From Marasmius tenuissimus (Eukaryota > Basidiomycota > Agaricomycetes > Agaricales > Marasmiaceae), in assembly GCA_029532415.1 (NCBI GenBank), contig JAQOTA010000053.1, positions 3,286,001 to 3,350,000 of the forward strand: a stretch of 64,000 nt of DNA. The letters are read 5' to 3'. Below, piece by piece: positions 23,038 through 58,549 of this stretch. The translations under genes were made by a program, and so were the position numbers. The notes below the pieces were generated by a model. The model ran no database searches. It was not told where the DNA came from and saw nothing but the letters and a program-made list of their open reading frames with translations. Positions within the stretch are counted from its first letter, which is position 1. Each line of letters starts with the position of its first letter.

Positions 23038-23091
23038 TGTCACAAACTGCCACTATTCTTTTGTCCTGTCCACCCCAATGCTGGCCCTACT
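23038..23091 (+). repeat. First 54 bases of the Gypsy G1 5' LTR
   Basis: Starts TGTCACAAACTGCC, resembling the start of the T-family LTR at 44189 (TGTTACGAATCAACC). It ends in CTACT (23087-23091), the reverse complement of AGTAG (40187-40191) beside the rest of this LTR. I read it as the outer stub of the LTR that continues at 40191-39732, separated by a Copia insertion and then by the inversion. Confidence 0.65.
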
Positions 23092-23412: not shown

Positions 23413-23454
23413 CACCCCCTCGCTAAGTGCAGCTGAAAAGCCCATCTGAGCAAA

Positions 23455-26190: not shown

Positions 26191-26211
26191 TGACCAGTGA
26201 AGTGTGCTGGG

Positions 26212-26470
26212 TGTTGAATCCGGACTCCCGGATATATGGACCGTTGTATCGGGCCGCACATATGCTTCAATCGTTTCACTATGATCTATGCTATTCCTAG
26301 TCACTCCTGTTATAGAAGATACAGCCACCTCTGTATAGTATATAAGTAGCTCTGTATCTACATACAATACCAGTACTTTTTACTACTCTCGTTGCTGCCT
26401 CTAAGCCTATCTCTAGGTGAGCTAGTCTGTCCCATGCTGCCACTGCGTGGGCAGGACCTCTGCCTCAACA
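26212..26470 (+). repeat. 5' LTR of E1
   Basis: 259 bp, TGTTGAATCCGG...CTCAACA, with a TATATAAG TATA box near 26339. Confidence 0.93.
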
Positions 26471-26483
26471 GGTTATGGGCCCC
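26471..26483 (+). promoter_or_regulatory. Primer binding site of E1, half-tRNA type
   Basis: GGTTATGGGCCCC directly after the LTR, complementary to the initiator tRNA-Met anticodon stem-loop. Confidence 0.8.
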
Positions 26484-26799
26484 GGTGCCCTATCGATGTG
26501 CCCTGCGATGGCAAGCTCTCTAGGATGTGCACCTTTACTGTGTGCTGCCTATGATGATGCGCTATTGTGGTCGTTGCACTCGATAACCATTGTGACTGCT
26601 TAATCACTGCCGTGATGGGCAGACCGTTAACACCGGTTCTGGACCTGTGAAGTCGACATCTTCATTGATGTTTGACGATGGTGGACTGTGTCCTCAACAA
26701 CGATCGATGGCTATCGCCGTTGACCGTGCAGTGATTTCTTTTATCATTGCCTATGATGATGAACCTATGCTGATCGTTGTTTTATTACTCCAGATCGCT

Positions 26800-29700
26800 A
26801 TGGCTCCTGTTATGTCTACCCTTATCCCCACCGTTGAGGTCTTCAGCGGTGTCAACTGGCGCAAGTGGTCCAAGGGTCTTGGTACCTATGCCATGATCAA
26901 CGAGTTCTACGACCACTACACCAACGACGATCCTGAACCCACTGAACCCGAGAAACCTAAAGAACCATCTGAACCCAAGCCAACTACTCGCACTGTCACC
27001 GTTCCTGCTCGTGAAGGTGGAGAAGCTACTCGACGTACAGAGACAGTCTCCCCTACCGATGAGCAAATGCAGCAGTATGGCAGGGATCTTGAGCAGTATG
27101 CTAAGGATTTGGAAAGGTACGAGAAGGATTATCTCAGGTACGAGAAGGACCATCGACGTTGGAAGAAGTATGAATTCAAGGCCATGGGTGCACTACGTGC
27201 CACCACCACCATTGCCGTGCAGAGTATTATCGAGGATGATGATACGGCTTGGGGCGCTTGGGAGAAGATCAAGGCTCGTTATGGTCAACAGACTTCTGTT
27301 TCTGTTTGGGCTGACTTCAAGTCGGTCATGGAGTTTCGTTTGTCCAGAGGTAACCCCGTTCCCGAGATTGCCAGACTCGAACTTCTATTCGGCCAACTCT
27401 CTGAAGCTCAGATTGAACTCCCTACCCTCGTCAAAGCCATGCTCCTTCTCTCCATCATTCCACAGTCATGGGCCAACGCTCGTGAATTCGCTACCAATGG
27501 TAACTCGCCAGCTGAACTTACTTTCGAAGTGGCTCGTGATGCCGTCATTAACCACTACGAATCCCGCAAACCCGCTCCTCTCGCGTCGCGCATCTCTTCT
27601 GTCAAGAAGAAGGACAAGGACCCGAAGTTTAACCAACAGTCTAATCCTCCTTCGTCGACGTCTAACAATAACAACCAGTCTAAGAACGACAACGACCAGA
27701 AGAAGAAGAATAACCGACGTGGCAGGAAGAAGAAGGGTGATTCTCAGGACAACAAGGGTGACTCCTCTCACAAGGGTCATTCTCATATCGCATCCCTCTC
27801 TCATTTGTCCATCTCTTCACCACCCATTGTTCCTGATACTCCATCTGTCGTACATCCTGCGGACCGATCCCGGGATCCACTCCATATGCAGCGTTTCTCT
27901 GGTGCTACCTCTGGTGGTACTGTTTTTGAGAATGCTCAGGCTGCTCGCAGTCTTGCCGATCGTCTTGGTGTTCCCAAGTATGCCCACATCCTTGAACCTA
28001 TGGAACAGGGATATGCGGCTGCTTCCTCTTCCTCCCTCAAGCATCGTATTGATGGTCCCTTCTCTACTGCCCCACCTGCAAAGCGTGCTAAGAGCGTTGA
28101 GAAGGTTTATGACCTCTATGATTCTTTCTATGAGGACTCCGACTCTGAGCGTGAAGATCGTATCACGTTGAACGCTGTAAACGATTCTTTGCGTACGGAG
28201 ATTGCGAGTGGAAGTGCCATGGACGTTGACAGCGAGATCGCAGATGCCGCTGGTTTTTCCGACGATGTTGAGTACGATTCAGTCTCCATCGGATCTGAGG
28301 AATCTGACGATGACAGGCAAGTGCCTTATCTCAGTCTTTCTTCTAACACTGATACGAACCTACAGTGCGCCGCTTTATTAGCCGCTTCTAAACGTAGTAG
28401 TTCGGATATCGTGTCCCGTATGAAATTTGCGCAATTTATTGGTGATCACTTTGCCACATGTGCCAATTGTAAGGGAAAGAAGGCGACTGGAAACTCGCAA
28501 GAGTGGATCGTCGATTCAGGTGCTTCATCGCACTTTACTTATGATCTCGAAGATTTTGCTGAGTACGAACCCATGAACAATGGACCGCAGCTAAACACTG
28601 CACAGAAGGACAACCCTATCCAAATTAAAGGGAAGGGGACTGTGTTCATCTCTCATTCTGTTGAAGGATTTGACGGTCGTATGGAGGAACGCATTACGCG
28701 ACTCTATCCTGTCTATTATGTTCCGCTTCTGTCAATTCGACTTCTCTCGCTTGGAGAATTCTTGCAAGGTGGTCTGCAAGTACGCGGATCGTCTAGCAAA
28801 TTGGCTTTTTATCAAAAGGGTCGACGCCAGTCATTGGTATCTTACCCGCTCATGCCTGGTCAAACCATTTATTGGGTTAGCTCGCAGAAAGCCTCTGCTC
28901 GTAGCTTAATGGCCAAGTCAACAATGGATAAAGTTGACTACAAGGTTCTACACAGACGTTTCGGACATTGTTCAGACAAGGCTCTGGATAAAGCTCGGAA
29001 GCATACTAAGAACTTCCCGGAATTCGACCGAAAACCGAAGAAAACCCGGTTATGCCGAGGATGTGCAGAAGGAAAGATGCACTCCAGATCGTTCCCTGAC
29101 TCCACTACCCGTGCCTCGAAACCCTTCGAAAAAATCCACTCCGACCTCAAACAATTCCCCACTGAGTCGTACCACAAATACAAATGGTATATGTCGTTTG
29201 TCGACGACTGTACTTCACATGGCTGGACAATGCTCATGCGACGCAAATCTGACTCTGTCAAGATGCTCCGTGACTTTATCGCTATGGTGAAGGTACAATT
29301 TGGTGTTGATATTAAGGAATGGATGTCCGATGGAGGGGGAGAGTACAAATCGGATGCCTTCGATGATGTACTAAAGGAGCACGGTATCAAAATTCTGACC
29401 AGCATTCCATATACGCCGGAACAGAATGGTCGTGCAGAACGGTTCAATCGGACTATTGTCGAGAAAGCTCAAGCTCTTCGCTTTGATGCTTGTCTTCCAC
29501 CTTCTTGGTGGGAATTCTGTGTGTTGCACGCTGTTGCACTTCACAATCGGACGCCATCCCAGCGTTTACGTTGGTTGACCCCGCATGAGAAGTTGCATGG
29601 CAGTGCACCGGATGTTTCGGATCTTCGAGTATTCGGATGTGCAGCGTATGCGTTTATTCCGGAAAAGCGTCGAGTTAACAAGTTATCTCCGCGTTCGGAA

Positions 29701-32001
29701 CTGATGACCTTTATCGGTTTTCAGGAAGGCATGAAAGGATATGTCTTCATGAAGATGTCCAACAATAGTATCTTCAAAAGCGCTACTGCTCTGTTCGATG
29801 AAAACTTATTCCCGAAGTGTTCTGATAAGAAACCGCGTGGCTTTACCCCGGTGGGTGAAATCCCTGAAATACCACCGGTATTGGGTGAAAATCCCAACTT
29901 CTCTTCGGATAGTGATGATGATTCGTCTGATGACGATCTATATCCTCCCAAGAATCTTCCAAAGCGATCGGAATCTCCTCATGACGATGATGGAGATGGT
30001 ACTGTACCTCAGGGTGAACGTCAACACTCTGATCCTGATCCTCCGTTCCAGCCTCCCAGGCCACCTACACCAGTGGGTGGTAAAGAGCAGTCTCCGCCGC
30101 CAAGGCGTTCAGGCAGGAAACGGACGGGTACTAAGCAACCTGATAATGTATTTGGTGAACAACGAGACCCAAATAATCCCTCGCGCATTGTGCGTGATAT
30201 GGAGAAAAATTCTACATGGAGAGATGCCACAGGTGATAGAGAACCCATGGATCCGCCTACTACTCGTAGGAGAGGCAGACCCAGAAAAGTTCCTGGGACT
30301 AATCGTGCCAGTCTGTCTACCATGTGTAACTTCAGGGGGAGTCGGCCCGATAACTTAGTGCAACAATTATCCCAGGAAGGGGGAGTAGGTTTCGTGATTT
30401 ATCTGTTAAATCGGGCAGTTCCTGTTCACGATGACCTCACCGATATGTCTAACGTTCGAGAGTGGACTCTCCGTGACATACTGAAGCTGCCAGCTGAGCA
30501 GCAGAGAGAATGGAAGGCCGCTTGCCGCGATGAACTAGAGGCTCTTCGCAAGCGCAAGGTCTTCGAATTGGTTGACCTACCTAAAGGTCGCAAGGCTGTC
30601 AAAAACAGATGGGTGTTTGACGTTAAGTCAGACGGTCGAAAGAAAGCTCGACTTGTTGCCAAGGGTTTCTCTCAGGTCGAAGGTGTCGACTTTGATGAGA
30701 TCTTCTCACCAGTTGTACGGTTTGAAACTGTACGGATGATGCTCGCACTTGCAGCTCTCAAAAACTGGCACATTCAGGCGTTGGATGTGAAGAACGCCTT
30801 TCTTTATGGTGAACTTAAAGAAGAGATCTATATGGATCAACCTGAAGGTTTCAAGGTTAAGGGTCAGGAAGGCAAAGTCTATTGCCTTCGCTGTGCATTA
30901 TATGGACTGAAGCAAGCCGCTCTTGAGTGGTGGCGTGCCCTCAGCTCGTCCATGGAAGTAATGGGCTTCAAATGCTTAACTTCCGATGCAGGTCTCTTCA
31001 TCTGCAAAGATCGTGAGACTGGTGAAGAATGTATTGCTTTGATTTATGTCGACGATGCATTATTCCTTGGACCCAACAAAGCCTTTGTTGAAAAGAAGAA
31101 AGCCGAGTTTATGGCTCGTTGGGAATGCCGTGATCCTGGAGAAGTTAAAGAGTTCTTGCGCATGCGTATTCATCGCAGAGGCCGTAAAATCCTTCTTGAC
31201 CAGACCGACTACTTGAAGAAGGTCTTGAAGCGATTTGGCATGCAGAATGCAAAAGCAGCAGATACTCCTCTTCCCGCCGGCTATATTCCACAACCCAACG
31301 AAGGTCCTGTTGATCCCGAACGTCGCGCTCGATATCAATCAGTGATTGGATCGCTTCTGTATATCATGCTTGGCACTCGTCCAGATATTGCCTACGCTGT
31401 TACAAAGCTTTCTCAATTCTCTGCTAATCCATCGGAGGATCACCTGAAGAAGGCGCTTTATATTTGCCGCTATCTTGCAGGAACTCCAGACTATGCACTG
31501 GTCTATGATGGAGCCTCTGACGGAGGTTTACTAGCATTCACTGATTCTGATTGGGCTGCTGATCCTATCAAGCGTCGGTCGATCACGGGCTATTTCTTCA
31601 AATTGGCAGGTGGCATCTTCTGTTGGCAATCACGCGCCCAGAAGACTGTTGTGCTTTCATCCACTGAAGCTGAATACATGGCGCTATCCGACTGTAGTCG
31701 TCAGGCTGTGTGGATTCGACAGTTACTCTCTGAACTTGGGATTGATATGACTCCTGTACCCATATGTGGAGATAATCAAGGCTCGATTTTTATCGCCTCT
31801 AACCCAGTTCAAGAACGTCGCACCAAACACATTGATATTCGCTATCATTACATTCGCGAATGTGTTTCAGACCGCAAGGTCGATCTTTTCTTTATTGATG
31901 GTGCCTACAATCCTGCGGACATGTTTACCAAGAATTTGGGTCATGTCAAGTTCTCCGCTTTTAGAGAACATCTTGGACTTGAATTTTATTCGTCCGAATA
32001 G
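26800..32001 (+). CDS. Family-2 Copia gag-pol polyprotein, 1733 aa, uninterrupted
   Basis: The frame is open from 26647; I choose the ATG at 26800 (MAPVMSTLIPTVEVFSG) because family-1 gag starts at the equivalent place, though ATGs at 26668 and 26707 are possible. Domains: gag of the UBN2 type (about 130-240), a basic Asn/Lys-rich tail (about 265-330), protease DSGASSH (about 571), integrase zinc region HRRFGH...CRGC (about 718-760), integrase core HSDL/MSDGGGEY/EQNGRAERF (about 780, 841, 873), RT with YVDD (about 1415) and RNase H TDSDWAAD (about 1581). There is no CCHC knuckle; only CANCKGKK precedes protease. Compared with E2, E1 has Cys for Arg in RT (RCALYGLKQA; KCLTSDA), so an open frame does not guarantee activity. 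Confidence 0.95.
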   Translation: MAPVMSTLIPTVEVFSGVNWRKWSKGLGTYAMINEFYDHYTNDDPEPTEPEKPKEPSEPKPTTRTVTVPAREGGEATRRTETVSPTDEQMQQYGRDLEQYAKDLERYEKDYLRYEKDHRRWKKYEFKAMGALRATTTIAVQSIIEDDDTAWGAWEKIKARYGQQTSVSVWADFKSVMEFRLSRGNPVPEIARLELLFGQLSEAQIELPTLVKAMLLLSIIPQSWANAREFATNGNSPAELTFEVARDAVINHYESRKPAPLASRISSVKKKDKDPKFNQQSNPPSSTSNNNNQSKNDNDQKKKNNRRGRKKKGDSQDNKGDSSHKGHSHIASLSHLSISSPPIVPDTPSVVHPADRSRDPLHMQRFSGATSGGTVFENAQAARSLADRLGVPKYAHILEPMEQGYAAASSSSLKHRIDGPFSTAPPAKRAKSVEKVYDLYDSFYEDSDSEREDRITLNAVNDSLRTEIASGSAMDVDSEIADAAGFSDDVEYDSVSIGSEESDDDRQVPYLSLSSNTDTNLQCAALLAASKRSSSDIVSRMKFAQFIGDHFATCANCKGKKATGNSQEWIVDSGASSHFTYDLEDFAEYEPMNNGPQLNTAQKDNPIQIKGKGTVFISHSVEGFDGRMEERITRLYPVYYVPLLSIRLLSLGEFLQGGLQVRGSSSKLAFYQKGRRQSLVSYPLMPGQTIYWVSSQKASARSLMAKSTMDKVDYKVLHRRFGHCSDKALDKARKHTKNFPEFDRKPKKTRLCRGCAEGKMHSRSFPDSTTRASKPFEKIHSDLKQFPTESYHKYKWYMSFVDDCTSHGWTMLMRRKSDSVKMLRDFIAMVKVQFGVDIKEWMSDGGGEYKSDAFDDVLKEHGIKILTSIPYTPEQNGRAERFNRTIVEKAQALRFDACLPPSWWEFCVLHAVALHNRTPSQRLRWLTPHEKLHGSAPDVSDLRVFGCAAYAFIPEKRRVNKLSPRSELMTFIGFQEGMKGYVFMKMSNNSIFKSATALFDENLFPKCSDKKPRGFTPVGEIPEIPPVLGENPNFSSDSDDDSSDDDLYPPKNLPKRSESPHDDDGDGTVPQGERQHSDPDPPFQPPRPPTPVGGKEQSPPPRRSGRKRTGTKQPDNVFGEQRDPNNPSRIVRDMEKNSTWRDATGDREPMDPPTTRRRGRPRKVPGTNRASLSTMCNFRGSRPDNLVQQLSQEGGVGFVIYLLNRAVPVHDDLTDMSNVREWTLRDILKLPAEQQREWKAACRDELEALRKRKVFELVDLPKGRKAVKNRWVFDVKSDGRKKARLVAKGFSQVEGVDFDEIFSPVVRFETVRMMLALAALKNWHIQALDVKNAFLYGELKEEIYMDQPEGFKVKGQEGKVYCLRCALYGLKQAALEWWRALSSSMEVMGFKCLTSDAGLFICKDRETGEECIALIYVDDALFLGPNKAFVEKKKAEFMARWECRDPGEVKEFLRMRIHRRGRKILLDQTDYLKKVLKRFGMQNAKAADTPLPAGYIPQPNEGPVDPERRARYQSVIGSLLYIMLGTRPDIAYAVTKLSQFSANPSEDHLKKALYICRYLAGTPDYALVYDGASDGGLLAFTDSDWAADPIKRRSITGYFFKLAGGIFCWQSRAQKTVVLSSTEAEYMALSDCSRQAVWIRQLLSELGIDMTPVPICGDNQGSIFIASNPVQERRTKHIDIRYHYIRECVSDRKVDLFFIDGAYNPADMFTKNLGHVKFSAFREHLGLEFYSSE

Positions 32002-32030
32002 ATGCTTTGTGCTCTACTTGTGCCGCACTT

Positions 32031-32042
32031 AGCGAGGGGGAG
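32031..32042 (+). promoter_or_regulatory. Polypurine tract of E1
   Basis: AGCGAGGGGGAG immediately before the 3' LTR. Confidence 0.8.
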
Positions 32043-32300
32043 TGTTGAATCCGGACTACCGGATATATGGACCGTTGTATCGGGCCGCATATATGCTTCA
32101 ATTGTTTCACTATGATCTATGCTATTCCTAGTCACTCCTGTTATAGAAGATACAGCCACCTCTGTATAGTATATAAGTAGCTCTGTATCTACATGCAATA
32201 CCAGTACTTTTACTACTCTCGTTGCTGCCTCTAAGCCTATCTCCAGGTGAGCTAGTCTGTCCCATGCTGCCACTGCGTGGGCAGGACCTCTGCCTCAACA
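32043..32300 (+). repeat. 3' LTR of E1
   Basis: 258 bp. It shares CATGC and a run of four T with the 3' LTR of E2, where both 5' LTRs have CATAC and five T. Confidence 0.93.
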
Positions 32301-32305
32301 AAAGA

Positions 32306-33161
32306 CTCATTGTTAAAGCATATTCCCTCCTGACTTATTAAATAATATTCTGTTTTGTTTTACTTAACAGAACTGGCAACAATTGATGGATGAGAAGCAA
32401 GCTTGAATTGTTTTATGTTTATGTTACAGCAGATTTTCTTTTTCCAACATTTCCCACATCAATCTATGTTTAGTCCACACTTTGAATGTGCTATATAGAA
32501 AACACAGTTTTAGCCTTGGAAAAGACATGGAAAGAGAAATGATATCACCTTTCCCTTTTGTCCATCTTGCACTTGACTATTGCTGATTTAAGCTCCTAAC
32601 ATGTCAGTATCTTTAACAGCTTAGTTAGAAGTCCCTCTGTTCAAAGCTGTGCAACAGAAGCACTATGCAAGTAGTGCAAGTTGGGCAGATTGTCCTTGTA
32701 GGCCATTCACTTGAGAAATGTATTATTGGACAGTAGCTCTGGCTGGATATATGTGTCTTCCATATTCTTCATCTCCCATTCAAATATGGTTAGATCTGCT
32801 AGTTCTAGAGTGACAGTGAACTGTGAGATGGGAGGAGTGTATGTGTTCCACCATTGTAATGTTACACATAAACTCCTCACCATCACATTGCAAAGTGGCT
32901 CTTAGCTCCATAGACCGTTAATGAGCCTATTCAGTACCTATTTTAGGGCATTATTAGACTGTTGTTTAGTTTTATAAATGGTAATTGATGCCTGAATATC
33001 AGTGCCTAATAATATACTGGAAACTGAAAATTGGGTAGCCTTATACCATGGTATTCTTTTCCAGAGCCACAGAGAGGAACAGGGGGAGTGTACAACTTGG
33101 TTTGGGCAGTGAGCTCTTTATGACTCCCACTATGCCTGGATTTCCATGTGTTTGCCTGAGT
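32306..33161. other. AT-rich spacer between E1 and the G2 LTR
   Basis: I find no gene, no LTR ends and no recognisable motif in these 856 bases. Open frames are short and without recognisable similarity. Confidence 0.5.
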
Positions 33162-33878
33162 TGTTAGGATTGTGCAGATCAGATAGGGATAAGATAAGAT
33201 ATGGGGTTTTATATGCTGTTGGATAGATGGATAGGAAAGAGATAAGTGAAGGAGTGTGGGAGCAATGGATCTAGAGCAGACAGTAGCTGAAGGTTTTGCC
33301 AACAGCACCATGAACTGAGCTGTCCTTCTACTAGACTAAGAGGACAAGCTGCAAGAGAGAAGGAAAGACATTAGAGTCATGATGGGGATTGACCCAGATT
33401 GAAACCTGGTTGATTTCGAGTCTAAATGATACAAGATAGAAGTATAGAGCTTATATAGGGTTATAGTAAATGAATGAATCATAAGTGAGTCAAGTGCAGG
33501 AAAGGTTGATGTATCATATGGAAGTCAAACGCGGGGAGAAATGTACCGGAAGGGAAATGAATCGGAAATGAATATGTGCATGATGGAATGAAGATATGAC
33601 TAGAATAAGTGAGCATAGGAATATCTCAGAAGTTGGAGATAAGTAAGTCAGAACAAGTCAGAATGAAAGGTAAAAGAGTCCTGGAAGCGGAGGCAGAAGT
33701 GGTGGAGGTTCTGGGAATGGACTTGGTGTGAGAGACTGAACCGTGGAAGTGAAGATTGAGTGCCGGGAATGGAGTAGTGTCTGAATGAGCTAGAATAATA
33801 GCCCAGAAATACCCAGAATAGGTCCAGAAGTGATGTGACTAGGTGAGATAGACCAGGGTAAGATGTATGGATGTAATA
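33162..33878 (-). repeat. LTR family G2, complete (717 bp)
   Basis: Plus-strand reading starts TGTTAGGATTGTG and ends at the reverse complement of TATTACATCC (TG to TA at the first dinucleotide compared with the copy at 17702). The TATA region CCCTATATAAGC is near 33455 in reverse orientation. It abuts the end of the Gypsy G1 pol directly, but the 5' LTR of G1 is of another family, so I read it as a solo LTR or truncating insertion rather than the true 3' LTR of G1. Confidence 0.75.
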
Positions 33879-36800
33879 TGAAGAGAAGTGTGAAATACTA
33901 GGTGGATTCTGCTCCATGTCTTGGGTAACTTGAGACAGTAAGTTACTGGACCAAGAACATCAACAATCTCAAAAGGGCCATGACGACAATTTGCCAACTT
34001 AGCTTTTGGTCTTGTTGATTTGAGGTTTTTTCCATCCAATGTAACTTTATCACCAACTTTGAAGCTGATACCATTCTCCATATGGTTATGGTTATTCCTC
34101 TTCATCAACTCTGCTGCCATTTTCAGACTTGCTTTAACCTCTTCTCTTACTTCTTTCTAGTTGTTGGAGATGTTCCTCCACTCTTGGGACATCTGTCCTT
34201 GGGTTGACCGAGGGGAACAGCTTTGGAAGAAAGCCATAAAGAAGTTTGTATGGTGCTTGTCCTGTTGCAGAGTGAATGCAATTGTTGTGACAGAAGACTG
34301 CAAAAGGAAGTAACTTGACCCAGTCATCTTGTTGATAGTCACAGAAAACCTGCAAATATTGCTCAAGCTCCTGATTATATTGTTCTGTTTCTCCATCAGT
34401 TTGTGGGTGGTAAGCTGTACTGAGTCCCTGAACAATGCCAAGTTTCTTTGACAATGCTGTCATAACCTTCCCTGCAAACTGTGGACCTCGATCTGTAATC
34501 ATCTTGTCCCACAATCCATATCGTGCCCACACATGGTCTACCAGAAGATCTGCTGTCCCATCACTGTCGATTGTCTTGTTACATGGTGTTGCAACCACTG
34601 TCTTGGTTGTCCGATCAACCACCACATGAATGGAGTCTGAACCATCGCAAAGAGGCAGGTCGGTAATGAAGTCGGAAGTTATGATACTGAATGGCCTCTC
34701 TGGAATCTCGTTGGGAACTAGTGGGACATGGGGAGGATTGTTGTTGGCTTTGGTAAGTTGACAAGTTGCACATCCTTCCACATATTCTTTGACAAACACC
34801 GACATGCCTGGCCACCAGTACTCGCGGCTAAGGAGTTCATATGTCTTGAAGCGTCCTGGGTGTCCAGCAGCCAGTGTATCATGATGGAGCCGTACCAGTT
34901 CACGTCGAAGCTCGATATCATATGGAACATAGACCTTTCCTCTGAAGAGGATTAGTCCATCCTCGTAATTCCATTCCTGTAGATTTTTGACAAGCGAGCG
35001 GGGACCATTGTTCAAGATGACATTGAGGGCACTCACAACCTCAGCATCCTTTCTTGGACACTCTACAATCCTACGTCTCAACTCTTCATCCATAGATGTG
35101 GTAACCATGCCAGGTCGGGTTGCTCGGATTTGAAAAAACTTGTGATCGAGGAGAACACGATCAGAATTGTCGTTCTCTACCCCCTCTTTATGATCTGGAC
35201 GCCGGGACAGAGGGTCACTGCGATTGGATGGACCTGGCTTGTGGATGAATACAAAGTCAAATCGAGTCAAGAATAAAGCCCATCGCGCTTGTCGACGACT
35301 TAATTTCTGTGCTGTGGTAAAGTACTCCAGGTTCTTGTGATCTGTATGAATCTCCACTGTATATGGTGCTCCTTCCAAATAGTGTCTCCATGTTTCCAAT
35401 GCTCTGATGATTGCCAAGAGTTCTTTATCATGGATATCGTAGTTCCGTTCGGCCTCTGACAGTGATTTGGAAATATATGCTGTTGGGTGCCACTGGCCAT
35501 CTTCACCTTGCTGTGAGAGGATTCCTCCAGTAGCAAAGTCTGATGCATCAACTTCCACACGATACGGTTTTGATTCATCAGGCATCAGCAATACTGGAGA
35601 GGATATGAACGCAGCTTTTAAAGCATCAAATGCTGTTTGACAATCTAGGGTCCAGTTCCATTGATGTTCCTTCCTGGTCAACTCGAATAATGGTCTTGCA
35701 ATCCGAGAAAACCCCTCTATAAAGCGGCGATAGAAATTCCCAAACCCAAGAAATGATTGCACTTCCTTCACAGAATGTGGTGTTGGCCATTCAGTGACAC
35801 CTGCTACCTTTACTGGATCCATAGCAAGGGTGTTGTGAGAGATTATCAGGCCCAGGAATTCAACTGACTCAGCTTCGAAAGTGCACTTTTCTGGTTTCAA
35901 GTAGAGGTCATGATCTTTCAACCGCTGAAGCACCTTTCTGACAATTTGACGATGTTCCTCCATAGTGTCCGTGAATATAAGAATGTCGTCCATATAGATG
36001 ACCACCTTCCCTGACTCAATCAAGTCACTAAAAATGGTGTTCATCATTGCTTGGAATGTTGCAGGTGAGTTCATAAGGCCAAAGAACATCACCGTTGGTT
36101 CAAAAAGGCCTCGGTTTGTCTTGAATGCAGCTTTCCACTCATCCCCCTCCTTGATTCTGATATTGTTGTAACCCCATCTGAGATCCACTTTAGAAAATAC
36201 TCGTGCTCCCTTGAGTTTATCCACAAATTCTGATATGAGGGGTAGTGGGTATTCATTCTTGACAGTGCCAGTGTTGAGAACCCGATAGTCCTGTACAGGT
36301 CGTAGCTTTCCATCTTTCTTTTTGACGAAGAAAAATGGACTTGCCATTGATGACTTTGAAGGACGAATATATCCCTTCTCTAAATTCTCCTTGAGGAATG
36401 AATCAAGTTCCTGCTGTTCATTGGGTGATAGAGGATATGTCTTGCAAGTCTTTGGTTGGAAATCTGGCTTGAGATCAATGGCATGATCCCAATCTCCTTG
36501 TGCTGGTAACCGTTCTGCTATCTTCTTGTCAAAAACTGATAGAAATCCATGGTATTGCTCCGGAACTAGTTCCTCAAGCTTCTTGGGAGTTTTATCAGCA
36601 GCATGGTGTTTCTCTGCTAATACTTGTGCATTTGTGAATGCTGCTCGGATATTCATAGTAGGACTGTCCTCGAAATCTGGTTCGCTCACCGGAGAGTCCT
36701 CTTTTCCAAAGACTTGTTTCAATGCTCTAATTACCCAATCTCTAGGCACCTCAACTTCTCCATCATCATCTTCTGTGAACAGCTTTGATGGTAGTGGGGG

Positions 36801-37418: not shown

Positions 37419-37534
37419 TCTCAATTCTGATGGAAACGATTGCTCACAGAGTAGGTTCAATATATCAAATCAATTCGAAGATAGTCCGGTAAGTAATGGT
37501 ACAACTCCTCCTAACGACGCAGTAGGGGAGGAAA

Positions 37535-38863
37535 TCACAAATCCTTCTTGTCGCCAAGGTCCCTCCAGTGTGCAGCAACGGCAGCCTTGGTTTCTGGGTC
37601 CAGCTTCTGAATATTGTTGAATGTCTCGGTGATTTCTTTCATATAGTCAGGGGTAGAGAAAGGGGAAGTGGTAGCAAGATTGTTCATAGGGGTAGAAGAG
37701 AAAGATGGTGGTACAGTGGAAGATGATGGAAAAGAGGATGAAAAAGATCCAGGAGTAGTAGCACGGATATTGGTGCCTGTGGAACGCTGAATAGGAATGA
37801 ATTGTCCTGATCGTTGGTTGGTTGGTGGAAATGTAGGACATTCATATCCTTGATGACCTGGTTGCCGACATCTGAAGCAAAGTCCTTTATCAACACACCA
37901 CTGTCGTTCCTCAGGAGTCAGCTTTTTCAGAGGGATAAGGGGCGAAGATGCACCTGGAGCCTTAAAGGCATTGACTTCCTTTGATGCTCTAGCATCTGCA
38001 GCAACTCTACCTGTGGTGGTAGATGTGGTAGTTGTTTGGGAACGAGTGACATAGTTCCCCAGGCGAGTGTTCTTCCAGCGTGCTGCTTCTGCCCTGCGAC
38101 TCAAATACTCATTCTGCAACTCTACAGCTCGCTTCTTATAACCCTCTAATCCCTTTGGCCTTGGGTATGTCCCAGACACCCGATCAACTAGCTTGGGATG
38201 AAGTCCACGCTTGAAGAAGAGCAAAAGTGCCTCCTCCCCCAGCTCAGAGACAGCTGCATGTCCTTCAAATTCAGAAATGTACTTGTCAATGTCAGCCAGG
38301 TCCCCAGTCATGGTGATGGTTTCAATAGCGGTCTGAGCCTTGCCTTTGGGGTCAAGTGGAGCAAAGTCCTTCTTGAATTGTTTCAAGAGAGAATCAAGGG
38401 TTGGCCACTTAACAGACTTCCTAGAGGATGCTGTAGAGCTTGCAACTCCAGTTTGTTGGCCTGCAAGATCCACGTTATTGTCCTGGTGGTCACTGCTACC
38501 CCAATCACTTCCTTCATCATCACTACCCCATCCATATATCTCCTCTATACATCTATCTGCCCATGCTGCACCAATATCTCCACTTAGTAATGAGAGGAAC
38601 AGCACTTGTTGGTCCACTACAGTGGGGTACTTGTCTTCATTCAGTGCAAGGTAGTTTCTGAATTTATTGACAAATCTGTTGGTCTTGACACAGTCCCCTT
38701 CCCAAATCTCAGGCTTAACACCTCTCTCACTGGGAAAGGAGGTACAGGCAGCCTTATCCAACCCTGCTCCAAGGTTGGTTGATGATTCTGGTTGGGATGA
38801 TGGACGATTGTGCGTGGGATTGGTAGTAGCTGGTTGATTGGGAGATGTTTCATGTTCTGACAT
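37535..38863 (-). CDS. Gypsy G1 Gag, 442 aa, with one CCHC zinc knuckle
   Basis: The ATG at 38863 (MSEHETSPNQPATT) is the first Met in the frame. Retrotransposon gag domain (FVNKFRNYLALNE ... KQFKKDFAPLDPKGKAQ), then a CCHC knuckle CFRCRQPGHQGYEC near 37880-37840. It ends at 37535 and pol begins about 115 bases downstream in a different frame. The same reading frame is open, without any ATG, upstream to about 39256 and, beyond one TAA, to the LTR edge near 39730. Confidence 0.85.
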   Translation of the reverse strand: MSEHETSPNQPATTNPTHNRPSSQPESSTNLGAGLDKAACTSFPSERGVKPEIWEGDCVKTNRFVNKFRNYLALNEDKYPTVVDQQVLFLSLLSGDIGAAWADRCIEEIYGWGSDDEGSDWGSSDHQDNNVDLAGQQTGVASSTASSRKSVKWPTLDSLLKQFKKDFAPLDPKGKAQTAIETITMTGDLADIDKYISEFEGHAAVSELGEEALLLFFKRGLHPKLVDRVSGTYPRPKGLEGYKKRAVELQNEYLSRRAEAARWKNTRLGNYVTRSQTTTTSTTTGRVAADARASKEVNAFKAPGASSPLIPLKKLTPEERQWCVDKGLCFRCRQPGHQGYECPTFPPTNQRSGQFIPIQRSTGTNIRATTPGSFSSSFPSSSTVPPSFSSTPMNNLATTSPFSTPDYMKEITETFNNIQKLDPETKAAVAAHWRDLGDKKDL

Positions 38864-39731
38864 GTTGGTTGATGGTGAGGACTTGGATTTTGGTCGAGGA
38901 ATTGGTCTAAGGGGAACAGGACTAATATGTTCTTCTTTGATAGTTGGTGATGTACAGGTTTGCTCTGGAGAAATGAAGATGTGTAACTCTCTCTCCTCAG
39001 CAGCTGTCAACCAACAGTTCTCTCCTTGTGTTTCTCCAACAATATACCAGCCGTGTTGTCCATCTGAGGTAGGCTGATCTAGCCAGTCAACTTCTTGCCA
39101 GACATTGGCAAGTACTGCAAAAAGTCTCTCTCCATCTCTGGGTTCAATTACAATGTAGTAAAGGAAAAGGGCGGGGATACTGAGGTTCTGGTCTTGGTTC
39201 TGGACTAGGTGCTCTTGCAGTTTCTCGAGGTCCTCGTTGCCGGGAGGGTGAAGCAATGTTGGGCAATGAGATTATTCGATGAGGATGAAGGAAAGAGCAC
39301 GAGCTTGGAGATCAGGATATAGAAGACGACCAGAAAGTGTGAAAAATAAGTTGGAAACAAAGGTGAATTCTCTTCCAGGAATAATAGCAGGAATATGTTG
39401 TGCAAGAGTGGGTAAAGGGGTGTCAAAGAGTTGAGTGATGCAAAGGTGGCCCTGGTATAGGATAATGGTGATAGAGGGATCTGTGAGTTCAAAGACCCTC
39501 ACTAGTAGGTACTGATTGTGGAAAGTGGAGTCTTCACCTGAGGTCCACACTGCACGGTGTGTATTAACCCAGCAATTGTTATATCTCTCAGGACTCTGGA
39601 GTATTCTGTGACCAAGTTCTTCACAGTTTAAGGTTCTGCTAAAGGATGGGGCAATCCTTGGGTAGGGGTATGCGTCAATATGTGCCAGTGTGCCAACAAG
39701 GTGGGGTGAGAGTAAAAAGAGCTTGTCCAAG
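38864..39731 (-). other. ATG-less open region between the G1 5' LTR and gag
   Basis: In frame with gag, about 285 codons are open except for one TAA at 39272-39274 and contain protein-like sequence (EVDWLDQPTSDGQHGWYIVG; REFTFVSNLFFTLSG), yet no Met codon. It could be a conserved N-terminal extension whose start codon has been lost, a non-ATG-initiated extension, or leader RNA. TGGACAAGC, just inside the LTR edge, could be a conventional primer site beginning TGG. Confidence 0.5.
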
Positions 39732-40191
39732 TGTCACGAATGGCCTCTGTGAAGAAACCTCTCAAGCCACCTGAACTCACTCAAGGATAAGACTAGTTGA
39801 TAGAAAAGTAAAAGAGTAGATTGAGCAGCCAAAAGCTCAACCCAGCACAAGTGCTACAAGCAGTGGGGAGACAAAGGGGACAAGCTGGGAAACTACCTAC
39901 AGAGACCATGAGTATATATGAGAATATGCATCACAAGGAATGAATGAAATGATGAGAAATGTCAAAAGTATCCATGAGAGAAAAGCAGAGAAGTCAAACC
40001 AAACATGTATAGTTGTAACTGATGGTAAGGTATGAGAAAGAAATCAAAAGATGATTGTTCCATGATGAAAGACCAAAATAACTGATATGGCTCAATAAGT
40101 AAATGAGGATGACAGGTGCCAATGCTATGTCAATGGGAGAATTGATTGGAATGACTCTGGTGATGGTAAATGGCAAGATCCAGGGAAGTAG
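39732..40191 (-). repeat. Gypsy G1 5' LTR, inner part (family T)
   Basis: Plus-strand reading starts TGTCACGAATGGCC and shares the ACTACCTACA...GAGTATATATGA segment with the T-family LTRs at 22627, 44189 and 53510. It is cut at 40191 by the family-1 Copia LTR. AGTAG (40187-40191) is the target duplication. Confidence 0.8.
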
Positions 40192-40512
40192 TGTTGAATC
40201 CGTGGACTATAATTAGATCCCGGTATATCCAAAGTCCCGGTTCATACTTCCCGCCATTGTATTATGCGGGACAATACATTTGCTATTGTTCCATTCTTCA
40301 TTGTTCATTATGCTCATATGTACAATTTCTATTGTCATACTTATATGGTAACTCTATTGTATCTACATGTATATAAGCTTGTAGTTCTCTACCTGAATCT
40401 ACAGTGTGCTTGAGCTTCTACGTCTCGCCTCTATCTCTCTAAACTCCTCTCTGGTAAGTAGTAGTGTAGCCATGTTGTAGTCCTCTGTGCTAGGCATTAT
40501 GCCGGCTCATCA
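40192..40512 (+). repeat. 5' LTR of the second family-1 Copia
   Basis: 321 bp, TGTTGAATCC...GGCTCATCA, with a TATATAAG box near 40369. Confidence 0.93.
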
Positions 40513-40524
40513 GGTTATGGGCCC
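40513..40524 (+). promoter_or_regulatory. Primer binding site, half-tRNA type
   Basis: GGTTATGGGCCC directly after the LTR, as in copy A. Confidence 0.8.
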
Positions 40525-40810
40525 TGGTTAGCCTGACTACAATAACGAGCGCCCCTAGGCTGCTGTTAGCGATGAGCGCCCCTAGGCTGCTGTCATCAGC
40601 TAGCTAGGCTAGACCTGCATGTTGCCATCGACCTCTTAATTGAGTGCTCGATCTATGGCATTGATGTACATCCTTCGACGACATCGGATCTCAAGGATCC
40701 AATGCTCCTCGTTGAGCATAGCGCCTTTATGGCCGCTCTCTGTGTTGATTAGACGCATGCTGATGCTGTCTTTTCTAGATCCAACACAAATCTCTCAACC
40801 TCTTACTACT

Positions 40811-41924
40811 ATGTTCAACATAAAGAAATACTTCTCTGGTCGCTTCGATGGCACCAACTTCAAACAGACCTACTACAGCGAGATGGAAGCTGTTTGTAAG
40901 ACCCAAGGTCTTTATGGTCATCTCACTGGCGCCGAACCACGTCCCTCCATGCCCCTTGGCACTGTGACTAGCCCCGCAGGGGTTACTCCTGTTACTCGTG
41001 CCACCGTCCCTCCCGAGGAGCACACTGCCTGGGTCAAGGAAAGTCTTGCTTGGGACAAGGAAGATCTCCAGCTCATGGGAATCATCCAGATCACCACCAC
41101 CAAGGAGGTCTTCGATCCGATCAAGGACATGAACACCAAAAAGGCTTGGGAACAGCTGAATCTCACCTACGGCGAGCCCACTTTGTCTGCCATCTATGGC
41201 GACTTTGTTAAACTCGTCTCTTTCAGACTTACCACCTCTCATCCCCAAGCCGGCATTGCCAAGTTCAAGTCCTACATTGAACGACTCTCCGAGGTAGGAG
41301 TGGTTCTCCCTGAGTTGATCAAGTCCCTCTTGCTCATTGCCACTATTCCTCCCGAATGGGACGCCGCCTCATCCAAATCCCTTCATGACTACGTCAGGGA
41401 TCCCGAGGATGAAGACTGCATTACCGTTTCGAAAGTCCATGACGCCATCATGGTTGAGTACGAACGCCAGAACCCTCAGCTCGCCAACCGCCTCTCTGTG
41501 GTGAAGCGTGCTGGTAATCATGAACCATCGTTCGGTCAGCAGCAACGCCCGCAGCAGCAACGTCAGCAGTGTTGGTATCAGCAGCAGACCAACACCTGTC
41601 CACCACAGCAGCAGCAGCAGCAACGCCCCTCTTCGAACCAGAACAAGGGTAAGAAGAAGAAGCAGCAGCAGTGTGGTACCCGGGGTGGTATCAACCAGCA
41701 CCAGGGTCCCGGCAACGCCGGCGGTAACAGCGGTAACAATCGGTCTCATGGTCACTCTCATCTTGCGTCCTACGCATCCGTCGTTGCTTCCCCTCCTACT
41801 GTTCGTCCTTACTCCTCGATCACTGACCGCAGGGAACGTATTGCGTTGAACGCAGTCAACAACTCCTTGCGCACCGAGATCACCAGTGCCCCTCCTAGCC
41901 GTGCTAGAGGATCCCCGCCCCCAG
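40811..41924 (+). pseudogene. Family-1 Copia gag, 5' part, interrupted by E2
   Basis: ATG at 40811 (MFNIKKYFSGRFDGTNFKQ). The gag domain and Gln-rich basic tail are open up to GSPPP, where the family-2 LTR begins. The frame reads on into the LTR to 42097, but that tail is not native. Confidence 0.9.
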
Positions 41925-42183
41925 TGTTGAGGCAGAGGTCCTGCCCACGCAGTGGCAGCATGGGACAGACTAGCTCACCTGGAGATAGGCTTAGAGGCAG
42001 CAACGAGAGTAGTAAAAGTACTGGTATTGCATGTAGATACAGAGCTACTTATATACTATACAGAGGTGGCTGTATCTTCTATAACAGGAGTGACTAGGAA
42101 TAGCATAGATCATAGTGAAAACGATTGAAGCATATATGCGGCCTGATACAACGGTCCATATATCCGGTAGTCCGGATTCAACA
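41925..42183 (-). repeat. 3' LTR of E2
   Basis: 259 bp, family 2. It carries CATGC and four T in sense reading, like the 3' LTR of E1. Confidence 0.93.
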
Positions 42184-42224
42184 CTCCCCCTCGCTAAGTG
42201 CAGCACAAGTAGAGCACGAAGCGT

Positions 42225-45200
42225 CTATTCGGACGAATAAAATTCAAGTCCAAGATGTTCTCTAAAAGCGGAGAACTTGACATGACCCAAATTCTTGGTA
42301 AACATGTCTGCAGGATTGTAGGCACCATCAATAAAGAAAAGATCGACCTTGCAGTCTGAAACACATTCGCGAATGTAATGGTAGCGAATATCAATGTGTT
42401 TGGTGCGACGTTCTTGAACTGGGTTAGAGGCGATAAAAATTGAGCCTTGATTATCTCCACATATGGGAACAGGAGTCATATCAATCCCAAGTTCAGAGAG
42501 TAACTGTCGAATCCACACAGCCTGACGACTACAGTCGGATAGTGCCATGTATTCAGCTTCAGTGGATGAAAGCGCAACAGTCTTCTGGGCGCGTGATTGC
42601 CAACAGAAGATGCCACCTGCCAATTTGAAGAAATAGCCTGTGATCGACCGACGTTTGATAGGATCAGCAGCCCAATCAGAATCAGTGAATGCTAGTAAAC
42701 CTCCGTCAGAGGCTCCATCATAGACCAGTGCATAGTCTGGAGTTCCTGCAAGATAGCGACAAATATAAAGCGCCTTCTTCAGGTGATCCTCCGATGGATT
42801 AGCAGAGAATTGAGAAAGCTTTGTAACAGCGTAGGCAATATCTGGACGAGTGCCAAGCATGATATACAGAAGCGATCCAATCACTGATTGATATCGAGCG
42901 CGACGTTCGGGATCAACAGGACCTTCGTTGGGTTGTGGAATATAGCCGGCGGGAAGAGGAGTATCTGCTGCTTTTGCATTCTGCATGCCAAATCGCTTCA
43001 AGACCTTCTTCAAGTAGTCAGTCTGGTCAAGAAGGATTTTACGGCCTCTGCGACGAATACGCATGCGCAAGAACTCTTTAACTTCTCCAGGATCACGGCA
43101 TTCCCAACGAGCCATAAACTCGGCTTTCTTCTTTTCAACAAAGGCTTTGTTGGGTCCAAGGAATAATGCATCGTCGACATAAATCAAAGCGATACATTCT
43201 TCACCAGTCTCACGATCTTTGCAGATGAAGAGACCTGCATCGGAAGTTAAGCGTTTGAAGCCCATTACTTCCATGGACGAGCTGAGGGCACGCCACCACT
43301 CAAGAGCGGCTTGCTTCAGTCCATATAATGCACGGCGAAGGCGATAGACTTTGCCTTCCTGACCCTTAACCTTGAAACCTTCAGGTTGATCCATATAGAT
43401 CTCTTCTTTAAGTTCGCCATAAAGAAAGGCGTTCTTCACATCCAATGCCTGAATGTGCCAGTTTTTGAGAGCTGCGAGTGCGAGCATCATCCGTACAGTT
43501 TCAAACCGTACAACTGGTGAGAAGATCTCGTCAAAGTCAACACCTTCGACCTGAGAGAAACCCTTGGCAACAAGTCGAGCTTTCTTTCGACTGTCTGACT
43601 TAACGTCAAACACCCATCTGTTTTTGACAGCCTTGTGACCTTTAGGTAGGTCAACCAATTCGAAGACCTTGCGCTTGCGAAGAGCCTCTAGTTCATCGCG
43701 GCAAGCAGCCTTCCATTCTCTCTGCTGCTCAGCTGGCAGCTTCAGTATGTCACGGAGAGTCCACTCTCGAACGTTAGACATATCGGTGAGGTCGTCGTGA
43801 ACGGGAACTGCCCGATTTTACAGATAAATCACGAAACCTACTCCCCCTTCCTGGGATAATTGTTGCACTAAGCTATCAGGTTGACTCCCCCTGGAGTTAC
43901 ACATGGTAGACAGACTGGCATGATTAGTCCCAGGAACCTTTCTAGGTCTGCCTCTCCTACGAGTAGTAGGCGGATCCATGGGTTCTCTATCACCCGTGGC
44001 ATCTCTCCATGTAGAATTTCTCTCCATATCACACACAATGCGCAAGGGATTATTTGGGTCTCGTTGTTCACCAAATACATTATCAGGTTGCTTAGTACCC
44101 GTCCGTTTCCTGCCTGAACGCCTTGGCGGCGGAGTCTGCTCTTGTCCACCCACTGGTGTAGGTGGCCTAGGAGGCTGGAACGGAGGATTGTTACGAATCA
44201 ACCTACTGTTTTCCCTTCCCTTGGTCCCCGGGTACTTTTTCCCCATGTTTTTCTCTTTATTTCCCATGGTTACATGTTCTCACCATCGCATTCTGGCCTC
44301 CATATCATTACCTGGTACTACCTGGTGTTCCACATTGTTTCCAGATATTTTCCCAGCATACCATATGGTTTCCACTATGACCCTGTTTCCACATGTATCC
44401 CTTGATTCTAATCACTTGTTCTTTCAGTTTTCCTGTTTTATCTTCGCTCCCATGATATCTCTACAGCTTGGTTCTGTCATATATAATCATGGACACTTCT
44501 AGATAGTTCCCCAGTCTGACAACTTCGTCTCATAGTGCTTGTTTCCAGCATGTACTATTATACACTTGCCCTACTCAATTCTATCTTCTCTCCTTCGCAC
44601 TCTTGTTGGTAGCTTGAGGGGTTTTCCTAGTCACTGGCCTCGTTCTTGACAAGGATCAGGATCAGGATGTTGACGTTCACCCTGAGGTACAGGACCATCT
44701 CCATCATCGTCATGAGGAGATTCCGATCGCTTTGGAAGGTTCTTGGGAGGATAAAGATCGTCATCAGACGAATCATCATCACTATCCGAAGAGAAGTTGG
44801 GATTTTCACCCAATACCAGCGGTATTTCAGGGATTTTACCCACCGGGGTAAAGCCACGCGGTTTCTTATCAGAACACTTCGGGAACAAATTTTCATCGAA
44901 CAGAGCAGTAGCGCTTTTGAAGATACTATTGTTGGACATCTTCATGAAGACATATCCTTTCATGCCTTCCTGAAAACCGATGAAGGTCATCAGTTCCGAA
45001 CGCGGAGATAACTTGTTAACTCGACGCTTTTCCGGAATAAACGCATACGCTGCACATCCGAATACTCGAAGATCCGAAACATCCGGTGCACTGCCATGCA
45101 ACTTCTCATGCGGGGTCAACCAACGTAAACGCTGGGACGGCGTTCGATTATGAAGTGCAACAGCGTGCAACACACAGAATTCCCACCAAGAAGGTGGAAG

Positions 45201-47894
45201 ACAAGCATCAAAGCGAAGAGCTTGAGCTTTCTCGACAATGGTCCGATTGAACCGTTCTGCACGACCATTCTGTTCCGGCGTATATGGAATGCTGGTCAGA
45301 ATTTTAATACCATGCTCCTTTAGTACATCATCGAAGGCATCGGATTTGTACTCTCCCCCTCCATCGGACATCCATTCCTTGATATCAACACCGAATTGTA
45401 CCTTCACCATAGCAATAAAGTCACGGAGCATCTTGACAGAGTCAGATTTGCGTCGCATGAGCATTGTCCAGCCATGTGAAGTACAGTCGTCGATGAACGA
45501 CATATACCATTTGTATTTGTGGTACAACTCAGTGGGGAATTGTTTGAGGTCGGAGTGGATTTTTTCGAAGGGTTTCGAGGCACGGGTAGTGGAATCAGGG
45601 AACGATCTGGAGTGCATCTTTCCTTCTGCACATCCTCGGCATAACCGGGTTTTCTTCGGTTTTCGGTCGAATTCCGGGAAGTTCTTAGTATGCTTCCGAG
45701 CTTTATCCAGAGCCTTGTCTGAACAATGTCCGAAACGTCTGTGTAGAACCTTGTAGTCACCTTTATCCATTGTTGACTTGGCCATTAAGCTACGAGCAGA
45801 GGCTTTCTGCGAGCTAACCCAATAAATGGTTTGACCAGGCATGAGCGGGTAAGATACCAATGACTGGTGTCGACCCTTTTGATAAAAAGCCAATTTGCTA
45901 GACGATCCGCGTACTTGCAGACCACCTTGCAAGAATTCTCCAAGAGAGAGAAGTCAAATTGACAGAAGCGGAACATAATAGACAGGATAGAGTCGCGTAA
46001 TGTGTTCCTCCATACGACCGTCAGATCCTTCAACAGAATGAGAGATGAACACAGTCCCTTTCCCTTTAATTTGGATAGGGTTGTCCTTCTGTGCAGTGTT
46101 TAGCTGCGGTCCATTGTTCATGGGTTCGTACTCAGCAAAATCTTCGAGATCATAAGTAAAGTGCGATGAAGCACCTGAATCGACAATCCACTCTTGCGAG
46201 CTTCCAGTCGCCTTCTTTCCCTTACAATTGGCACATGTGGCAAAGTGATCACCAATAAATTGCGCAAATTTCATACGGGACACAATATCCGAACTACTAC
46301 GTTTAGAAGCGGCTAATAAAGCGGCGCACTGTAGGTTCGTATCAGTGTTAGAAGAAAGACTGAGATAAGGCACTTGCCTGTCATCGTCAGATTCCTCAGA
46401 TCCGATGGAGACTGAATCGTACTCAACATCGTCGGAAAAACCAGCGGCATCTGCAATCTCGCTGTCAACGTCCATGGCACTTCCACTCGCAATCTCCGTA
46501 CGCAAAGAATTGTTTACAGCGTTCAACGCGATACGATCCTCACGCTCAGAGTCGGAGTCCTCATAAAAAGAATCATAGAGGTCGTAAACCTTCTCAACGC
46601 TCTTAGCACGCTTTGCAGGTGGAGCAGTGGAGAAGGGACCATCAATACGATGCTTGAGGGAGGAAGAGGAAGCAGCCGCATATCCCTGTTCAATAGGTTC
46701 AAGGACGTGGGCATACTTGGGAACACCAAGACGATCAGCAAGTCTGCGAGCAGCCTGAGCATTCTCAAAAACAGTACCACCAGAGGTAGCACCGGAGAAA
46801 CGCTGCATGTGGAGTGGATCCCGGGATCGGTCCGCGGGATGTACGACAGATGAAGTATGAGGAACAATGGGGGGTGAAGAGATGGACAAATGAGAGAGAG
46901 ACGCAATATGAGAATGACCCTTGTGAGAGGAGTCACCCTTGTTGTCCTGAGAATCACCCTTCTTCTTCCTGCCACGTCGGTTATTCTTCTTCTTCTGGTC
47001 GTTGTCGTTCTTAGACTGGTTGTTATTGTTAGACGTCGACGAAGGAGGATTAGACTGTTGGTTAAACTTCGGGTCCTTGTCCTTCTTCTTGACAGAAGAA
47101 ATGCGCGACGCGAGAGGAGCGGGTTTGCGGGATTCGTAGTGGTTAATGACGGCATCACGAGCCACTTTGAAAGTAAGTTCAGCTGGCGAGTTACCATTGG
47201 TAGCGAATTCACGAGCGTTGGCCCATGACTGTGGAATGATAGAGAGGAGGAGCATGGCTTTGACAAGGGTAGGGAGTTCGATCTGAGCTTCAGAGAGTTG
47301 GCCGAATAGAAGTTCAAGTCTGGCAATCTCAGGAACGGGGTTACCACCAGACAAACGAAACTCCATGACCGACTTGAAGTCAGCCCAAACAGACACAGAT
47401 GTCTGTTGACCATAACGAGCCTTGATCTTCTCCCAAGCACCCCAAGCCGTATCATCATCCTCAATAATACTCTGCACGGCAATGGTGGTGGTGGCACGTA
47501 GTGCACCCATAGCCTTGAATTCATACTTCTTCCAACGTTGATTATCCTTTTCATACCTGATAAGATCCTTCTCATACCTCTCCAAAGTGTTAGCATACTG
47601 CTCCAGGTCCTTAGCATACTGCTGCATCTGAGCGTCGGTAGGAGAGACCGTCTCCGTGCGTGTAGTTGCTTCAGTTGTAGTTGTAGCAGCAACAGTGATA
47701 GTGCGAGTAGTTGCTTTCGGTTCAGTCGGTTCGGTAGGTTTGTCGGGGGCATCAGGTTCAGGATCGTCATTGGTGTAATGGTCGTAGAACTCGTTGATCA
47801 TGGCATAGGTACCAAGACCCTTGGACCACTTGCGCCAGTTGACACCGCTGAAGACTTCAACAGTGGGGATAAGGGTAGACATAACAGGAGCCAT
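42225..47894 (-). pseudogene. Family-2 Copia gag-pol of E2, inactivated
   Basis: Start ATG at 47894, equivalent to 26800 in E1. It keeps the domain order of E1 with gag, protease (DSGASSH), integrase, RT (YVDDALF; RRALYGLKQA with the usual Arg) and RNase H. It is broken by TGA at 45954-45956 (CGA in E1), TAA at 43818-43820 (TTA in E1) and the solo LTR inserted at 44189-44651 in the integrase-RT linker. Apart from these, the frame is kept throughout. Confidence 0.92.
44189..44651 (+). repeat. Solo LTR of family T inserted in E2 (463 bp)
   Basis: TGTTACGAATC...TTCTTGACA, flanked by a perfect AGGAT duplication (44184-44188 and 44652-44656). AGGAT occurs once at the matching place in E1, so the insertion is dated after the E1/E2 family split. 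It shares most of its sequence with the solo LTR at 53510 in opposite orientation. Confidence 0.93.
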
Positions 47895-48210
47895 AGCGAT
47901 CTGGAGTAATAAAACAACGATCAGCATAGGTTCATCATCATAGGCAATGATAAAAGAAATCACTGCACGGTCAACGGCAATAGCCATCAATTGTTGTTGA
48001 GGACACAGTCCACCATCGTCAAACATCAATGAAGATGTCAACTTCACAGGTCCAGAACCGGTGTTAACGGTCTGCCCATCACGACAGCGATTAAGCAGTC
48101 ACAATGGTTATCAAGTGCAACGACCACAATAGCGCATCATCATAGGCAGCACACAGTAAAGGTGCACATCCTAGAGAGCTGCCATCGCAGGGCACATCGA
48201 CAGGGCACCA

Positions 48211-48222
48211 GGGCCCATAACC
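48211..48222 (-). promoter_or_regulatory. Primer binding site of E2, half-tRNA type
   Basis: GGTTATGGGCCC on the minus strand directly inside the 5' LTR. Confidence 0.8.
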
Positions 48223-48482
48223 TGTTGAGGCAGAGGTCCTGCCCACGCAGTGGCAGCATGGGACAGACTAGCTCACCTGGAGATAGGCTTAGAGGCAGCA
48301 ACGAGAGTAGTAAAAAGTACTGGTATTGTATGTAGATACAGAGCTACTTATATACTATACAGAGGTGGCTGTATCTTCTATAACAGGAGTGACTAGGAAT
48401 AGCATAGATCATAGTGAAAACGATTGAAGCATATATGCGGCCCGATACAACGGTCCATATATCCGGTAGTCCGGATTCAACA
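48223..48482 (-). repeat. 5' LTR of E2
   Basis: 260 bp. It carries CATAC and five T in sense reading, like the 5' LTR of E1. Confidence 0.93.
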
Positions 48483-48487
48483 TCTTT

Positions 48488-58525: not shown

Positions 58526-58549
58526 TAAGTTCATCATGTGATCATGGAA

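Follow-up and report, generated by a model that had tools for sequence, protein, structure and literature searches.

The closest described systems come from Drosophila, and one of them is based on Galileo, a DNA transposon. LTR retrotransposons reportedly served as substrates of homologous recombination in the experimental system of Kupiec and Petes from 1988; the likeness to the locus considered here is limited to that. In the available sections of two papers, two inverted elements with exchanged target-site duplications (TSDs) are an accepted sign of ectopic recombination (PMC2775673, PMC3355041). According to the same sections, Galileo made inversion 2z3 of Drosophila buzzatii, where the exchanged TSDs are treated as proof of ectopic recombination (PMC2775673), and BuT5 made inversion 2s of Drosophila mojavensis (PMC3355041).

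Here we consider a pair of retrotransposons, E1 and E2, in a 64-kb window of a fungal genome (the window is the whole stretch of DNA analysed). As described for 2z3 in the sections at hand, oppositely oriented copies of a transposable element lie at both breakpoints and the TSDs are exchanged. Unlike Galileo, a transposon of a fly, E is a Copia LTR retrotransposon of a fungus, the interval is 9.6 kb long, and nested elements are split. The 2z3 study also had the uninverted chromosome and chimeric copies, whereas E1 and E2 are known from the present arrangement in one genome (PMC2775673, same sections). The likeness to 2s consists in reverse-complement exchanged TSDs at two breakpoints; unlike at E1 and E2, the TSDs in the excerpted account of 2s are 9 bp long, one copy is reduced to a 27-bp remnant, and the breakpoints come from comparison with D. 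virilis (PMC3355041). In the collection searched, wordings of "exchanged TSD" matched only Galileo in D. buzzatii and BuT5 in D. mojavensis, and fungal cases may well have been published elsewhere; the available part of PMC10085805 contains no exchanged-TSD case. The E1/E2 case adds a further, well-supported example of a mechanism that is already known.

Two inverted Copia elements and the insertions around them

Two related elements stand in opposite orientations at the ends of the interval (Table 1). Both start with TGTTG and end with CAACA; E1 has 6,089 bp and E2 6,558 bp. The E family has the Ty1/Copia traits of LTRs with TG...CA termini (about 259 bp in E1 and E2) and a 5-bp TSD. In E1, a single open reading frame places the integrase ahead of an RVT_2-type reverse transcriptase; the Pfam order gag, integrase, RVT_2 is that of Copia, with rve at residues 841-941 and RVT_2 at 1321-1559 of 1801 aa. 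Among 120 of 869 matches listed for the reverse transcriptase of the window's Copia, the best one had 74% identity and covered 78% of the query; the named matches were from Trametes, Ganoderma and Rhodofomes, polypore proteins being the nearest named ones, which points to an agaricomycete as the probable host. A search for a mitochondrial COX3 gave no match. Another Copia-like element, at 58007-63911, has Pol domains on the minus strand and end repeats of 426 and 444 bp with two base differences and 18 gap positions. Elsewhere in the window, an open frame at 4321-5274 contains an animal-haem-peroxidase domain (PF03098).

A preliminary description of the locus called E1 and E2 nearly identical. 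This has to be corrected: the identity is 96.9% across the shared part, with 188 substitution sites, the longest substitution-free stretch is 260 bp, and the 463-bp insertion is present in E2 only. The flanks CTGGG, AAAGA, CCCAG and TCTTT given in that description are exact in sequence and position, and E1 and E2 are indeed inverted Copia copies. The exchanged TSDs are CTGGG/CCCAG and AAAGA/TCTTT. As was claimed, a flip of the interval restores both of them; beyond that claim, it also rejoins an older Copia element, F2, and an LTR of a Gypsy element, G.

Table 1. Coordinates of the E elements, their flanks, the older insertions and the second pair
Feature	Position	Strand	Basis or remark
E1, full-length Ty1/Copia (LTR, one 1801-codon open frame, LTR)	26212-32300	+	Self-BLAST, TGTTG...CAACA ends, Pfam order
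E2, inverted E1 copy with an extra 463-bp insertion	41925-48482	-	Self-BLAST, 96-98% to E1; 188 substitution sites
463-bp repeat inside E2, absent from E1	44189-44651	-	94.6% to 53510-53972
CTGGG, E1 left flank	26207-26211		Partner of CCCAG 41920-41924
CCCAG, E2 left flank	41920-41924		Partner of CTGGG 26207-26211
AAAGA, E1 right flank	32301-32305		Partner of TCTTT 48483-48487
TCTTT, E2 right flank	48483-48487		Partner of AAAGA 32301-32305
Interval, very probably inverted, between E1 and E2	32301-41924		9,624 bp
196-bp tail of E1 3' LTR	32105-32300	+	Identical to E2 41925-42120; candidate crossover place, one of two
Matching tail of E2 3' LTR	41925-42120	-	
F2 5' half, older Copia, host of first E insertion	40192-41924	+	92% to F1 9920-11651; stops exactly at E2
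F2 3' half, beyond E1	23092-26211	-	92-98% to F1 11647-11886 and 13350-16250; stops exactly at E1
AGTAG, F2 TSD, 5' side	40187-40191		
CTACT, F2 TSD, 3' side	23087-23091		Reverse complement of AGTAG
F1, F2-related element without E	9920-16250	+	BLAST pieces; empty E site: CCCAG 11647-11651
G, Gypsy (reverse transcriptase, RNase H, integrase)	33873-40191	-	3' end lost; LTR piece 39732-40191 cut by F2
Last 49 bp of the same G LTR, other side of the inversion	23038-23086	-	Unbroken 509-bp LTR in L030, L032, L034
P	C10:6095806-6109577	+	Flanks GAACC, GTGAG
Q	C10:6147132-6153541	-	Flanks GTGAG, GAACC in element orientation

The left flanks of E1 and E2 match adjoining stretches of F1. In the self-comparison, 40192-41924, up to E2, matches 9920-11651 of F1, and 25972-26211, up to E1, matches 11647-11886. 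These two pieces of F1 overlap by exactly five bases, CCCAG. Thus the two flanks are halves of one Copia element, F2, once invaded by E. The TSD of F2, AGTAG/CTACT, is also divided and is the third pair parted by the event. The LTR of G is unbroken in three fetched G copies and has 509 bp there; in the window its first 460 bp stand on one side of the interval and its last 49 bp, reversed, on the other.

A flip of the interval between E1 and E2 mends four features at once, namely two E TSDs, F2 and the G LTR, and these simultaneous repairs point to a flip between E1 and E2. The flanks are contiguous in unoccupied relatives: in F1 for the first E insertion, and in the three G copies for the insertion of F2 into G. 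The arrangement of E1, E2, F2 and G is not in doubt. The recombination between E1 and E2 proposed in the preliminary description is thus supported by the split F2, the F2 TSD, the G LTR and the unbroken relatives.

The second E insertion (AAAGA) gave no such relative: no paralogue was found for its right flank, nor for the left flank among the 40 scored of 368 candidates. When the flanks of this site were joined, no open reading frame of at least 60 aa spanned the junction, and ten open reading frames in the DNA around it gave no Pfam hit at a threshold of 0.01.

Several further observations concern F1, F2 and G. F1 is 98.3% identical to the inverted 3' half of F2 over 2.9 kb (9920-16250 and 23092-26211), and only about 92% identical to F2 upstream, over 1.7-kb and 0.24-kb pieces. 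This contrast may stem from conversion between the two inverted neighbours, or else from a mosaic origin. Besides its 3' LTR, G has lost about 370 bp, and another repeat (33162-33876) stands in their place, with the boundary at 33873-33880. A repeat of the same kind, about 0.7 kb long, was found at 17704-21489, where about 3.06 kb of different sequence interrupts it. The tail of an older E LTR (22953-23037) directly adjoins the outer end of the G LTR, and on this sequence evidence G was probably inserted into an E relic.

Survey of the E family

The assembly comprises 71.06 Mb in 70 contigs. With two queries, the best 40 of 596 and the best 40 of 579 candidates were considered, and the survey is a sample of the family members closest to E1. 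Both flanks were read for 46 further E copies, giving 48 with E1 and E2 (the 3' end of L024 was taken from L058). Outside the 48 are one-flank copies (C69:1174, C19:778977, C3:3570003, C37:1.08 Mb), a truncated copy (C37:966473) and 3' ends (C28:3304132, C23:1975085, C19:2485057, C7:1205958).

The TSDs are perfect in 38 of the 48 copies, for instance CGAAG/CGAAG in L011, and mismatched in ten. Thus a mismatch is not the norm for E copies. The mismatched copies are E1, E2, P, Q, L014, L016, L027, C31:362, C2:1.116 and C35:797; they form two reciprocal pairs (E1/E2 and P/Q), one half-exchanged pair, and four copies with no known partner. Age alone was rejected as the cause of mismatch in both reciprocal pairs, as the exchanged TSDs are perfect.

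Differences between the 5' and 3' LTRs number 0-4 (mean 1.1) in 30 matched copies and 1-11 (mean 4.3) in the ten mismatched ones. The remaining eight of the 38 matched copies (L017, L024/C5, C28:2.25 Mb, C28:3.27 Mb, C35:500, C35:514, C54 and C19:1.95 Mb) fell outside this comparison, as their LTRs were not retrieved or aligned in full. The divergence is higher in mismatched copies (one-sided Mann-Whitney p = 2e-4), although not uniformly, C2 and C35:797 being the exceptions. Indeed, of the four partnerless copies with unmatched TSDs in this sample, L027 (C69) and C31:362131 have divergent LTRs, and C2:1115815 and C35:797500 have nearly identical ones with one differing position each. Thus a mismatched TSD alone is no proof of exchange. 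An exact-pattern search for partners of L027 and C31:362 found none.

The second reciprocal pair, P and Q, is also inverted and lies on the same contig, 2.8 Mb from E1 and E2, with a spacing of 37.6 kb. Eight paralogues were found for the last 133 bp of the P flank, and three of them (L141-L143) were fetched. In all three, a piece of 133-134 bp at 99-100% identity is immediately followed by 602 bp of the Q flank at 98.8-99.0%, joining the 5' flank of P to the 3' flank of Q. No flank-joining paralogue was seen for the GTGAG junction. The LTR pairs predicted from the TSDs have 4 and 3 differences, against 2 and 3 in the present arrangement. By its sequence, P/Q is a probable second inversion of the same kind as E1/E2, with support of the same sort.

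The half-exchanged pair, L014 and L016, was found on C31 at about 561-574 kb. The two copies stand head to head, and the 96 bp of G sequence between them run opposite to the G sequence on the far side of L016. ACCAT/ATGGT is exchanged, and the other side does not fit. The 5' LTR of L014 and the 3' LTR of L016 differ at 2 positions and have in common 217A, which none of the other LTRs compared carries. The present LTR pairs have 11 and 4 differences, and thus one of the pairs predicted from the TSDs is more alike.

Crossover site and alternative explanations

If the crossover occurred in the body of E, the 5' LTR of E1 would pair with the 3' LTR of E2, and the 5' LTR of E2 with the 3' LTR of E1. 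These pairs have 7 and 4 differences, and the present pairs, with 6 and 3, are more alike. The pairing predicted from the TSDs with a cut in the body is therefore disfavoured by divergence. Set against 20 other copies, the 188 differences between E1 and E2 show no clear change of affinity along the body. With a cut in the body, 11 differences remain in total. The lowest total, 9, is reached when the crossover is placed within columns 1-62 of the 5' LTR or past position 62 of the 3' LTR; for any single cut, one LTR pair keeps at least five differences.

Three markers were considered among 80 LTRs. A T insertion at position 62 is present solely in the two LTRs of E2 and pairs them as now. An A at position 153 is present solely in the 5' LTRs of E1 and E2. 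The third, 165T, is common to both these 5' LTRs and to L011, L025 and L026. E1 and E2 are identical over the final 196 bp of the elements, but at their starts only over the first 15 bp, which favours the 3' LTR as the place of crossover. The few markers suggest that an exchange inside an LTR is more likely than one in the body, and we lean towards the 3' LTR rather than the 5' LTR. Models with a single crossover between the two elements need a separate conversion between the 5' LTRs for the common 153A.

One possibility, a rather doubtful one, is that the inversion arose between a solo LTR in F2 and the central LTR of a tandem dimer (LTR-body-LTR-body-LTR) at the AAAGA site. One crossover between LTR positions 62 and 153 would then explain 62T, 153A and 165T together, and the central LTR would differ from the 5' LTR of E2 at 2 sites. 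On the other hand, this scheme requires a solo LTR and a dimer whose two bodies are about 3% apart, neither of them observed. Moreover, two of the three markers consist of length changes in runs of T, which recur easily; 165T is also present in the three other copies. A crossover between two full elements seems the likelier form of the inversion.

Another explanation, to which we assign a low probability, is an error of assembly: the chromosome would be uninverted, and the assembler would have crossed between the E copies in both elements. This would yield identical exchanged TSDs and the same split of F2 and G. Both full exchanges are indeed on one contig and between inverted copies. The exact pattern of four TTAGGG units was not found in the assembly, which may miss chromosome ends, although this point is weak, as the search skips simple repeats. 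However, E1 and E2 are readily distinguished by their 188 differences and the 463-bp insertion, with no substitution-free run above 260 bp. The 38 matched copies show that most members of the sampled family are correctly bounded, and neither the 64-kb window nor 238,851 bases of loci (partly overlapping each other and the window) contain an N. Finally, undoing any single swap leaves at least five differences in one LTR pair and at least nine in total, compared to 0-4 per pair in the 30 matched copies. The latter argument is only moderate, since an old insertion could have divergent LTRs too. A mis-join at E1/E2 is unlikely, and the event probably occurred in the fungus itself and not in the course of assembly.

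A coincidence of flanks is practically excluded: 5-bp words are short, and GGAAT, for example, stands next to two unrelated copies (C61 and C33), but three pairs are divided, the F1 empty site, the F2 TSD AGTAG and the G LTR being further split markers that make chance negligible, and the paralogues of F1 and G refute it directly. When 11 pairs of 5-bp flanks were taken from random places in the window, 200,000 trials gave a reciprocal match of any kind at a frequency of 8e-5.

Order of events and implications

The nesting, the three divided 5-bp pairs and the empty sites for E in F2 and for F2 in G are directly observed, and they are consistent with the following history. G would have been inserted first, and then F2 into the LTR of G, with the TSD AGTAG. 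One E copy would have entered F2 (TSD CCCAG/CTGGG) and another the nearby DNA (TSD AAAGA/TCTTT). The two E copies would then have recombined by ectopic, non-allelic homologous recombination, the crossover falling presumably in an LTR, and the interval between them would have flipped. A genuine inversion between E copies by intrachromosomal crossover is very probable, wherever exactly the crossover lay.

Comparison between genomes is the usual way to infer inversions caused by transposable elements. Here one genome records the order of events, which can be read because the flip cut through nested insertions. Simply surveying TSDs was sufficient to find a second case, P/Q. In other fungal assemblies rich in repeats, this survey could serve to count similar rearrangements or, where reads contradict them, to reveal mis-joins.

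With two complete and one partial inversion among 48 copies, it is tempting, if still speculative, to suggest that the E family of Copia elements repeatedly flips segments of its host via LTR-to-LTR exchange between inverted copies, E1/E2 being perhaps a product of a solo LTR and a tandem dimer. If so, such segments may still flip and may be polymorphic between nuclei or isolates.
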